Program-made: the position numbers and the translations under genes | Source: Shinisaurus crocodilurus | Lineage: Eukaryota; Chordata; Lepidosauria; Squamata; Shinisauridae | Length of the DNA: 64,000 nt | Assembly: GCA_021292165.1 (NCBI GenBank) | Contig: CM037885.1 | Coordinates: 7,559,042 to 7,623,041 of the forward strand | Direction: 5' to 3' | Notes under the pieces: generated by a model | Databases searched by the model: none | What the model saw: the letters and a program-made list of their open reading frames with translations, nothing else | Told to the model about the DNA's origin: nothing | Shown: one piece after another, positions 23,122 to 27,026 of the stretch | How the letters are laid out: every line of letters begins with the position of its first letter | How positions within the stretch are numbered: position 1 is the first letter of the stretch

Positions 23122-26100
23122 ATGGTTTCTGCTAACTTGCCTGTTTTGACGACTCTACTTCTACCTCTTGTCTTCTGGGGATCTGAAGGCCCCCGGGCAG
23201 CATCTCCAGGAACTGCCGAGAGGACCGGCACGCATGACCCCAAGCAGATCCCCATGCAGGTCCTCCAAACCATCTTGTTAAGACGCCTGGGCTTGCAAAG
23301 GCGCCCGGAACCAAAGCCAGGGCTTGTGGTCCCCCAGCACCTGATGGATTTGTACCAATTCTGCTTGGGAAAGGCTCCTCCCTCCCTCAGAGAGACTGAG
23401 CTTCCCTTCCTAGAGGAGCAAGCAGGAAGAGCCAACACAGTGCGCACCTTCCACCATGTCGGTGAGGCCACAATTTGCATGCCTGGCTCGGAAACCCACA
23501 TCCAGGCCATGGGGGAGGGGGGGAGATGACTGGTTGGCAAGGGGGCCAGGGTGGTGGTAAGAGCCAGAAGGACCGCAGGGCCACAAAGGGGAAAGCGCAT
23601 CTGAACAAGGCGGGGGGGGGGGCATGAAGGCGAGGCAGCCGGCCATATGTGGCTCAAGGGGGCTGGACTGAGGAAAGGGGAGGGATTGCGGCTCAGGGGG
23701 CAGAGCACATGCACTGCACCCAGAAGGCCCCAGGTTTAATCTCAGGATCAGGGGACCGTAACGACATCTCTCTGCCTGAGACCCTGCCAGTCAGGGCAAG
23801 ACCACGCCAGGCTAGATGGACAAATAGGCCGACCCGCTCTAAGCTGGCATCCTCTACGTTCCAAGACAGACCAACCCAACTCCGAGGGCTGAACTCAGTT
23901 CTGTTCTCACCGTGTCCCTGCCCCCCCCCAAAGTAAGGGGCCAAGGTCCTTCTGAGTTTAAGCTGTGCTCATGAGCCAGCACAGCAGTTGGGGTGAGTCC
24001 CTTTCCTCTCTCTTTAAACCCACCCACCCACGCACTCCTTGCTGAGAAGAGGGATAGGGGCTCCTCCCCATGGTGCTAAAACTCAGGTGCCAGTGTGGCG
24101 TAGTGGTGAGAGTGTTGGACTGGGACTCGGGAGATCCGGGTTCTAGTCCCCGCTCAGCCATGAAACTCACTGGGTGACTTTGGGCCAGTCACTGGCTCTC
24201 AGCCTCACCTACCTCACAGGGTTGTTGTGAGGATAAAATGGAGAGGAGGAGGATTATGTAAACTGTCTTGGGTTCCTTGCAGGAAAAAAGGTGGGGTATA
24301 AATATAATAAATAAATAAATAAAAGAGGAAAAGCAGCAAAGCTCCCTGATGCCAAGATGCTTCGAGAACCCCCACCTCCCAACAACAACAATCTGTGCCA
24401 GAAAGTCTTGTTCAGGGCTCTGCTACTTGGGAGTCATGGAAGATCTCTCCTTATTCTTGCAAGCAGGTTTTCAATTAATCACCAAAGCAACGATCGGGCT
24501 AGAGCGGCAGCACTGTAGGCATGGGAGAACCAGCAAGTTTTGAGATTCTCTGAAATTCTCCGAAATTCACTTCAAATCTCGTTTCGTCTCACTCCTGTTT
24601 CCGACCTGTCTTTTTGGCTCGTTTGAACAGGAAAAGTGTGTATCTTTCAAAAGGGCACATTTCCCCGCCCCATTGACGAAAGCGTGAAATTGCATATTTG
24701 TTTTGGGGAAAGGGCATTTCAAAGTGTGCCCTTTTGAAAATATATATATTTTTGAACGCAACTGCAAATTCAAGAATTTGCAAAGCAACCGGTTCTCGGA
24801 AAAAAGCACTCCTGCATGTGCTCAGCTGCCTTGGGCTGTAGCGCCACCTAAGGGGTATGCAAGGCAACTGCATCACACAGTGTAGGAGCTGGCTAAAAGC
24901 AGACTGCAGGTAACCCTACGCCAGTGTTCCCCAACCTTGGGTCCCCAGATGTCTTTGGCCTACAACTCCCAGCATGCCCCAGCCAGCTATGCTGGGTTGT
25001 AGGCCAAAAACATCTGGAGACCCAAGGTTGGAGAACACTGCCCTACGCTGTGCCAAGCAATGCTGTCACTTCAGCGAAAGGGACGCCGCAGTATAGTTCA
25101 GTTTTGTTGTTTTTAAAGCCTAAGAATGAGGTTTCTATGCAACACACATTGCAGACCTCCAATCTAGTTTTGTTTTTGCTGTTTAAGTTGGTAAATAATT
25201 TCTGGTTTTAATACTTTGAACTCGTTCCACAGCTTGTCTCTCTTAGGGCACAATCTTATGCAAGTTTAGACAGCAAAAAAGCCTACAACTCCCAGCATGC
25301 CCCAGCCAGTTGTAGGACTTTTTTCTGTCTAAACTTGCATAGGATTGCGCCTTTAAGATATTAGCATCGGATGTCTCCAGATGTAGCAATTTGCGTAACT
25401 AATCGAAATTGCCCAAGTGACTGAAATCAATGGGATCAAACTAACTTAAGTCCCAATGATTTCAATGGGTCTTCTCCAAGTATGACTAGGTGTGGCTCCA
25501 ACCCTGAATGTCCAAGTCAACATTCTTCAAATGAAACCAAAGATTAAACCTCCCATTTCAAGGACAATATATGCCTCTTGAGTTCCAGATGCTGGGGGGG
25601 GGGGGGGAATGACAGGGGAGGTCTCTTAGCTTCATGCTGTGCTTTTGAACTTTCCAGAAACATCTGTCTGGCTGCAGCAGGAAATGGGATGTAGGACTAG
25701 ATAGCAGGGCCAGCTCCAGCTTTTGGAGGGCGCTTGGGCAAGACGCCCTAAATGGGCTCCCTCCCCCAGTGAATCCCTTCCCTTCTCCCTTCTCACTGCC
25801 ATTGTCACCACTTGCTATTCCTCCTCATTGCTACCACTTGCTTGCTTGACAGGCAGGGAGCCAGGGAACAAGTAGGCAGTGGCATTTGCTGCTGCTCCTC
25901 ACCGCCTCTATTGTCTGGGCCAGAGCGAGAGGCAGGTGAACAAGCAGGCTGCAGTGGTGAAGAGGAGGAGTAAGTCCGGGGGGCCTCTTGTTAGTGGGCC
26001 CCTCCTTGGGTCTGGGCCCTTGGCAGGCGCTCGACCATGCCTACTCTCGATGGGCCCATGGTTGGATCCAACAAGTGTATTCGAACACTTGGTCCCAAAT

Positions 26101-27026
26101 TCCTTTCTAACTTCTGTTTGGTTTCACATTTAGAGGATCTGGACCACATCGCTGAAGTCGTAGGAAGTTCATTCTACATCCTGTTCAACCTCACCTTGCT
26201 ACCTGCAGAGGAGGAGCTGACCGCCTTGGAGCTGCGCCTCTACCACACGCAGAAGGAAAGCCAGGGCTTTCACATCAATGTCTACCATGTGATGGATCCC
26301 CCAGCTATTTCCAGAAACAAAAACAGACTCCTCACCCGCAAATTTTTAGCTCTTGACCAGCCCAGGTGGGAGAGCTTTGATGTCACCGCTGCTTTTGAGA
26401 GGGCCAAGGGCAAGAACCATCATCTTGGGTTTCTTGTTGAGGTGGAACACTCAAACAGCAGCCAAGAGCTGCGACACCACCCGGTTGCCCTTCGTACAAG
26501 ACGCTCCCCCAGAGAGGAAGAGGTTCAGTGGGCTCTAGAAAGGCCTTTATTGGTCACTTACAGTCACGACCGAAGGGGGCAGCCTCTGAGCCATGGAAAA
26601 AGGAAAAACAGGAGCCAGCCTGGTAGACCAATCCAGAAAGGAGGCAGAAGAACTACAAACATTCCAGCCTCCAGGAGCAAACACAAGAGCTTGAAGCCAA
26701 AGCCCAAAGCCAGCACAAGGTGCAGAAGGCACCGCCTGTTTGTGAATTTCAAAGAGGTTGGGTGGAACGACTGGATCATTGCCCCTGGCGGCTACCATGC
26801 TTTTTACTGCTCTGGGGAGTGCAGGTTCCCGCTGGCTGACCACATGAACTCCTCCAGCCATGCCGTGGTACAGACCATGCTGAATTCAGTGAACTCCAAA
26901 GTACCCAAGGCGTGTTGTGTTCCAACGGACCTCAGCCCCATTGCGATGCTCTACCTGGATCAACATGACATGGTGGTCCTTAAGACCTACCAGGACATGG
27001 TGGTGGAGGGCTGCGGGTGCCGGTAG
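23122..27026 (+). CDS. BMP16: BMP2/4/16-group ligand, most likely BMP16 (two coding exons)
   Basis: Exons 23122-23461 and 26134-27026, joined in phase 1 as in BMP2/BMP4 (E114 spans the junction), give 410 residues; BMP4 has 408. The order is a signal peptide (MVSANLPVLTTLLLPLVFWG), a TGF-beta propeptide (VRTFHHVED, YILFNL..LPAEEELTALEL, RWESFDVTAAF) and a basic site KRKNR at residues 269-273 for furin-type cleavage. The 101-residue cystine-knot domain (310-410) has seven Cys: CRRHRLFV, VGWNDWIIAPGGYHAFYC, KACCVPT, VVEGCGCR. N-glycosylation sites: NLT (about 132) and NSS (about 221). It is a secreted dimer that would signal through BMP receptors. The mature domain differs from BMP2 and BMP4 at many sites they share (APGGYHAFYCSGECRF, HMNSSSHAVVQTML, QHDMVVLKTYQ), so it is the third paralogue rather than either. 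That BMP16 is lost in mammals is recalled knowledge. Frame, splice sites and key residues are intact, so the gene looks functional. Confidence 0.93.
23685..23850 (+). mobile_element. tRNA-Ala-derived SINE, diverged
   Basis: 'ggctcagggggcagagcaca', 'cagaaggccccaggtttaat', 'ctgcctgagaccctgccagt', 'aggctagatggacaaatagg' match the body of the copy at 57283 with substitutions. Confidence 0.65.
24091..24323 (+). mobile_element. CORE-SINE (MIR-like) in BMP intron
   Basis: Full-length copy, head 'cagtgtggcgtagtggtgag', core 'acctcacagggttgttgtga', ending in AATAAATAAATAAATAAA. Confidence 0.85.
24922..25040. mobile_element. hAT-type foldback MITE with exact 8-bp target duplication
   Basis: Termini CAGTGTTCCCCAACCTTGGG and its near-perfect inverse ending CCAAGGTTGGAGAACACTG. 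The flanking octamer ccctacgc is present on both sides (24914-24921 and 25041-25048). An 8-bp duplication and a CAGTG terminus are hAT signatures. The family recurs at 29838, 39424, 42785 and 40024 (partial). Confidence 0.9.
25243..25356. mobile_element. Foldback MITE, TTAA-type, copy 2
   Basis: Begins TTAGGGCACAATCTTATGCA and ends TGCATAGGATTGCGCCTTTAA. Arms include 'gtttagacagcaaaaaagcc' against 'acttttttctgtctaaac'. Confidence 0.8.

Follow-up and report, generated by a model that had tools for sequence, protein, structure and literature searches.

An intact BMP16 gene in the anguimorph lizard Shinisaurus crocodilurus and the furin-type cleavage sites of vertebrate BMP16

Structure of the gene

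The window analysed here, a stretch of 64,000 nucleotides from Shinisaurus crocodilurus (contig CM037885.1; C10:7559042-7623041 in the 2.19-Gb assembly), contains a gene that was shown to be BMP16, the ortholog of fish, coelacanth and shark BMP16, and single-copy as far as the assembly shows. Its two coding exons (Table 1) join in phase 1 at GT-AG splice sites into an open frame of 410 amino acids (aa) without internal stop codon. Pfam detected a TGF_beta domain (aa 309-409, E 4.3e-35) and a TGFb_propeptide domain (aa 47-256, E 3.7e-29) in the protein, and the top-scoring solved structures were BMP2 chains. The mature part contains exactly seven cysteines (310, 339, 343, 374, 375, 407, and 409), and a leave-one-out count of the mature domain showed that the window copy breaks none (0) of the positions that are invariant across the other vertebrate rows. 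Both the complete 410-aa ligand of the BMP2/4 group and the seven knot cysteines of the original prediction were thus recovered.

The intron was found at the homologous codon in BMP2, BMP4, and BMP16 of this genome, after FHH-[E/V], with the phase 1 junction G/gt ... ag/A. The two-exon layout of BMP2/4 stated in the original prediction is now shown by comparison with the junctions in the species' own BMP2 and BMP4. A search with the window protein returned 1326 proteins, and among the best 120 of these the full-length proteins of Elgaria (89% identity) and Varanus (86%) were leading, which excludes a chance frame.

Table 1. Features of the BMP16 locus, with positions counted from the first nucleotide of the window
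Feature	Position	Strand	Basis
BMP16 coding exon 1 (N-terminus, first part of prodomain), phase 1 at its end	23122..23461	+	Translation, GT donor; junction common to BMP2 and BMP4 of this genome
Sole intron inside the coding region, GT-AG, with dispersed palindromic repeats	23462..26133	+	
BMP16 coding exon 2 (remaining prodomain, cleavage region, mature ligand, stop codon)	26134..27026	+	Translation, Pfam
S2-type furin site RTRR (aa 234-237), optimal R-X-K/R-R	26493..26504	+	
HGKR (aa 267-270); RGKR or RGRR (optimal) here in 19 of 23 other non-snake squamate rows	26592..26603	+	
RKNR (aa 270-273), minimal; sole R-X-X-R between the RPLLV block and the mature cysteines	26601..26612	+	
RSKH (aa 294-297), BMP2/4-type S1 position; RSKR in Varanus, RSRR in Elgaria	26673..26684	+	
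Mature cystine-knot domain, C310 to R410, seven cysteines	26721..27023	+	
GEMIN7 coding exon, upstream neighbor	16411..16818	-	Pfam Gemin7, E 1e-31
PPP1R37 coding sequence, downstream neighbor	34375..34536	+	tblastn with a PPP1R37 probe, E 2e-15

Orthology and copy number

Maximum-likelihood trees, for which branch support is given as pairs such as 100/99, placed the window gene within BMP16. In the main tree, which contained 61 rows (60 of 169 proteins and the window protein) and was drawn with midpoint rooting, the gene grouped with Varanus (100/97) and then with Elgaria (100/99), inside a squamate BMP16 clade (18 rows, 100/100) and a bony-vertebrate BMP16 clade including fish and coelacanth (36 of the 61 rows, 100/99). 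Three salamander rows were located in the same BMP16 clade, in agreement with salamanders retaining Bmp16. The placement was equally supported (100/99) after removal of the cleavage region, and it held with insect Dpp as outgroup and when the BMP2 and BMP4 of this genome were added, these two forming separate clades. The phylogeny with BMP2, BMP4, and fish bmp16 thereby confirmed the BMP16-like identity originally proposed and placed the gene outside both BMP2 and BMP4. A position inside BMP4 was rejected by the approximately unbiased (AU) test (p-AU 0.036), and one inside BMP2 was rejected by the trees, no AU test having been made for BMP2; the BMP4 and BMP2 of this genome sit elsewhere.

Two shark rows named 'BMP2-like' and 'BMP4-like' fell on the BMP2/4 side of the midpoint in the 61-row tree. 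In a tree of the mature domain only that was rooted with Dpp, these two rows joined BMP16 (99/96), and in the Dpp-rooted tree with the BMP2 and BMP4 of this genome, in which the outgroup branch is long, BMP16 including the two sharks was supported by 100/100. In the latter tree, BMP4 rather than BMP2 came out as the possible closer relative of BMP16 (80/55).

A search of the assembly with BMP2 protein as query gave 42 matches, from which the copy counts are lower bounds, as they cover the best candidates only. Three mature domains showed at least 69% identity, namely BMP2 on C4 (84%), BMP4 on C1 (69%), and BMP16 on C10 (70%), whereas the next-best complete mature domain showed 56%. BMP16, BMP2, and BMP4 were each represented by a single gene with a mature domain. 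No second BMP16 was seen among these best candidates, and the other gene grouping with fish bmp16 that the original prediction had considered was not seen in the assembly either. At C1:311379985-311380221, 1.8 Mb from BMP4 and on the opposite strand, the first BMP4 coding exon had a further match. The mature-domain search lists no second BMP4 there, and the extra match is a duplication or an assembly artefact.

Cleavage sites in BMP16, BMP2, and BMP4

Furin motifs were classed as optimal (R-X-K/R-R) or minimal (R-X-X-R), with S1 denoting the site adjoining the mature domain (the BMP2/4-type position) and S2 the upstream site. A FastTree tree of all 170 sequences served to assign the rows; its BMP16 node had low support (0.33), so that the assignment leans on agreement with the 61-row tree. 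Five squamate rows that lack a species name were placed by similarity, and Anolis is present twice. In BMP2 and BMP4, the S1 motif has been described as optimal and the S2 motif as minimal; BMP2 reaches full activity only when both sites are cut, is less active when S1 is uncleavable, and is cut in an order that does not follow motif strength (PMC11735993).

The furin-type site of the original prediction was present at the S2 position of the window copy, where RTRR is optimal, but not at the canonical S1 position, which reads RSKH and thus is not an R-X-X-R motif; only the weaker RKNR is found, upstream of that position. This RKNR lies 36 residues ahead of the first cysteine, compared to 13 residues for S1 of the BMP2 and BMP4 of this genome. 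In the same species, BMP2 contains RISR at S2 and REKR at S1, and BMP4 RISR and RAKR, whereas BMP16 has RTRR at S2 and only RKNR downstream. The predicted products are 173 aa (19.7 kDa) after a cut at S2 and 137 aa (15.3 kDa) after a cut at RKNR.

Among the BMP16 rows, S2 was optimal in all 31 squamate rows, both turtle rows, 2 of 3 salamander rows, both the lungfish and the coelacanth row (2/2), and 42 of 92 ray-finned rows; it was optimal in none of 14 BMP4 rows, 1 of 24 BMP2 rows (with one more BMP2 row unscorable), and neither of two shark rows. The ray-finned S2 was minimal in 49 of 92 rows, 44 of which read RVCR. An optimal S1 near the mature domain was found in BMP2 (24/24), BMP4 (13/14), ray-finned fishes (81/92), salamanders (3/3), sharks (2/2), turtles (1/2), lungfish and coelacanth (1/2), and squamates (8/31), although two of these eight squamate rows (P0016 and P0018) appear to be linker-less models. 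On a tree built without the cleavage region, 4 changes were needed for the optimal S2, 10 for S1 near the cysteines, and 5 for an optimal S1 at any downstream position.

An optimal downstream motif was present in 23 of the 30 other squamate rows. RGKR or RGRR was found in 19 rows, 37-39 residues before the first cysteine (14-15 in two short models), and RSKR or RSRR in 6 rows, 12 residues before it, with both types in 2 rows. Both optimal S1 motifs known from other lizards are missing from the window copy. The remaining 7 of the 30 rows, all from snakes, contained no optimal S1, with an RDRR inside the conserved block of Thamnophis left uncounted; these are full-length proteins with seven mature cysteines.

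BMP16 shares its domain plan, cystine knot, intron position, and two-site processing region with BMP2 and BMP4, from which it forms separate clades. Ray-finned Bmp16 falls into the same clade as the window copy (100/99) and resembles it where S2 is optimal, but differs from it by its mostly optimal S1. Lungfish and coelacanth BMP16 have an optimal S2 like the window copy, and the coelacanth likewise has no R-X-X-R at the S1 position adjoining the mature domain. In the open-licence literature searched, the optimal S2 of BMP16 was not found in print.

BMP16 sequences from side-necked turtles

Two rows of the BMP16 clade came from side-necked turtles, Emydura macquarii (P0028, 392 aa, named 'BMP4-like') and Pelusios castaneus (P0032). 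Together they formed a pair (99/92), which in the 61-row tree was the sister group of the entire set of squamate BMP16 rows (20 rows, 100/99). A position of the turtle rows inside BMP4 was rejected (p-AU 8e-75). Squamate contamination was rejected as well, as the proteins showed only 62 and 56% identity to the window protein and formed a pair of their own beside all squamate rows. All seven cysteines were present in both proteins, and at S1 Emydura has no R-X-X-R of any kind while Pelusios has RSKR. The Pelusios sequence contains no normal start, and the start of its exon 2 is replaced by a stretch that by its motif resembles a reverse transcriptase of the non-LTR (long terminal repeat) type; this may reflect an error in the model or damage to the gene.

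With the Emydura protein as query, the best 120 of 1285 hits included, above the coelacanth row, none that was named as a cryptodire, crocodilian, bird, tuatara, or mammal, within protein sets rather than genomes; one nameless row above the coelacanth (P0020) grouped with the skink Lerista. A fragment search for BMP16 pieces in other amniotes gave 52 hits, most of them nameless, and no named amniote BMP16 among them. One hit from an unnamed source, P0208, is a 94-residue C-terminal BMP16 piece that joined the two side-necked turtles on a long branch (81/96, open fork). Of 40 mature positions that are invariant elsewhere it breaks 3, and it may represent a relaxed or decaying copy from another turtle or an archosaur. 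Side-necked turtle BMP16 was not found in print in the open-licence literature searched.

Surroundings of the gene

The location between GEMIN7 and PPP1R37 agrees with the one given in the original prediction, GEMIN7 being identified by Pfam and PPP1R37 supported by the tblastn probe, to which later PPP1R37 exons 0.1-18 kb past the window end showed up to 98% identity. Pfam searches on six open reading frames (ORFs) of the window detected a family in GEMIN7 only, and none in the PPP1R37 ORF, two CLASRP-like ORFs, and two reverse-transcriptase-like ORFs. The GEMIN7 frame (16411-16818, minus strand) also matched Pfam SUZ-C just over the cut-off (24.9 vs 21.1 bits). Plus-strand ORFs at 1351-4111 and 12708-13040, partly rich in serine and arginine, resemble CLASRP exons by their motifs, with a null Pfam result for the two tested. 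The human gene order is presumably CLASRP, GEMIN7, PPP1R37. This GEMIN7/PPP1R37 address of BMP16 was not found in print in the open-licence literature searched.

Minus-strand frames at 60628-61588 and 28649-29068 resemble by eye parts of the reverse transcriptase of long interspersed nuclear elements (LINEs); Pfam found no family in the LINE-like frames 61058-61588 and 28652-29068, which look repeat-derived. Dispersed palindromic repeats were located at 24917-25045 and 25245-25351, within the BMP16 intron, and at 27863-27976 downstream of the gene. Their arms are 86-90% complementary, the common core resembles CCTACAACTCCCAGCATGCCCCAGCC, and they look like a small non-autonomous element.

Discussion

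Bmp16 has been described in squamates, sharks, coelacanth, and ray-finned fishes, and among squamates in anole, python, garter snake (Thamnophis), pit viper (Protobothrops), bearded dragon (Pogona), and geckos (Gekko and Paroedura) (Feiner et al., 2019; PMC6395752). The expectation that an amniote BMP16 would be a surprise was therefore not upheld: the presence of the gene is ordinary for a lizard, and the window copy, which is the same ortholog with the same length class and mature domain, is a new species record of a known squamate gene. Anole BMP16, both in its own sequence and in the published account (PMC6395752), differs by a serine in place of the fourth cysteine, whereas the window copy keeps all seven. 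What appears to be new are the BMP16 copies of side-necked turtles and the pattern of cleavage sites, both of which were computed from public proteins.

The gene structure, orthology, copy number in the assembly, intact mature domain, and neighbors are observed here, and we consider it very probable that this anguimorph-lizard BMP16 encodes a secreted, disulfide-linked ligand of the BMP2/4 class. The ligand would signal via BMP receptors and SMAD1/5/8 during embryonic development; signaling and embryonic expression are most likely by analogy with the family and with anole in situ data, where Bmp16 is expressed in retina, heart, limb buds, and gut mesoderm (PMC6395752). Purifying selection on Bmp16 has been reported, with an omega of 0.176 between anole and bearded dragon (PMC6395752). 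Some points weigh against a fully functional single-copy ligand. The optimal S1 motif is gone from the window copy, which could mean weak function, given the reduced activity of BMP2 with an uncleavable S1 (PMC11735993). The copy counts obtained with the BMP2 query are lower bounds, and the mature part had low confidence (blocks 30-47) in an AlphaFold model of exon 2 as a monomer, a result that is neutral either way.

The changed sites suggest altered processing of the precursor. The precursor would dimerise in the secretory pathway, and furin-type convertases would cut first, and perhaps mainly, at the upstream optimal S2. A cut at the minimal RKNR would yield the 137-residue ligand; if RKNR is poorly used, the secreted form would be the 173-residue ligand, which carries a basic extension at its N-terminus. 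Judged from the motifs, a precursor cut mainly at S2 is a real possibility that falls somewhat short of probable, and the site changes may affect secretion, range, or potency of the ligand. Ordinary two-step processing, with RKNR standing in for the lost S1 and a ligand that acts like BMP2/4, has about an even chance of being correct: RKNR satisfies the minimal R-X-X-R rule, and in an engineered BMP2 whose optimal and minimal motifs had been swapped, S2 was still cleaved first and S1 after it (PMC11735993), but the position of RKNR so far ahead of the first cysteine, compared to S1 of BMP2 and BMP4, and its non-basic P2 residue argue against such a replacement.

A decaying BMP16 that is heading for loss, with weak or no expression and its cleavage site already gone, is very unlikely. 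The gene evolves about twice as fast as BMP2/4 and has been lost repeatedly (PMC6395752), and optimal S1 motifs are absent from the window copy and all seven snake rows; however, the open frame, intact splice sites, full set of cysteines, unbroken invariant mature positions, and 86-89% full-length identity to Varanus and Elgaria speak against decay, as do the snake proteins, which are complete despite the same absence. Finally, a diverged duplicate of BMP2 or BMP4 can be dismissed, being refuted by all trees, the AU test, and the separate BMP2 and BMP4 of the same genome, even though 19 of the 25 named squamate rows among the best 120 proteins were called BMP2, BMP2-like, BMP4, or BMP4-like at their source (5 had hypothetical or family-level names and 1 was named BMP16), which shows that squamate BMP16 is widely misnamed.

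As to the family, it has been reported that a few BMP16 proteins do not have R-X-X-R at both S1 and S2, a feature that is thus not strictly defining, and that S1 conservation is weaker in BMP16 (PMC6395752). The ray-finned rows, 49 of 92 with a minimal S2 and 81 of 92 with an optimal S1, weigh against a simple switch of the two sites, and because of them the switched pattern is a trait of squamates and not of all BMP16. Losses of Bmp16 have been inferred for the stem lineages of mammals, archelosaurs, and amphibians (PMC6395752), and the newt genome paper states that its authors had proposed loss of Bmp4 in salamanders and of Bmp16 in anurans (PMC12506533). The side-necked turtle sequences suggest that these turtles kept BMP16, contrary to the published loss before the split of turtles and archosaurs. 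If turtles are sister to archosaurs, a turtle BMP16 means that the loss could not be a single event at the base of archelosaurs, and the locus thus bears on gene retention and loss, as had been anticipated. We put forward only tentatively the joint reading that bony-vertebrate BMP16 reversed the strengths of its sites, with S2 optimal early, S1 decaying repeatedly in squamates, and snakes and the window species secreting a long, basic, S2-cut ligand, and that the gene also survived in crown turtles (Pleurodira), so that cryptodires, crocodilians, and birds did not lose it in a single step at the archelosaur base.

The altered sites of the window copy represent a natural counterpart to the engineered site changes in BMP2 and BMP4. 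The BMP16 locus with its neighbors GEMIN7 and PPP1R37 provides an address at which remnants may be sought in mammals, birds, crocodilians, and cryptodiran turtles, and if the human gene order assumed here is right, the position of the lost mammalian gene would be between these two neighbors. If the side-necked turtle genes hold, the published history of BMP16 would change from one loss ahead of the turtle-archosaur split to at least two.

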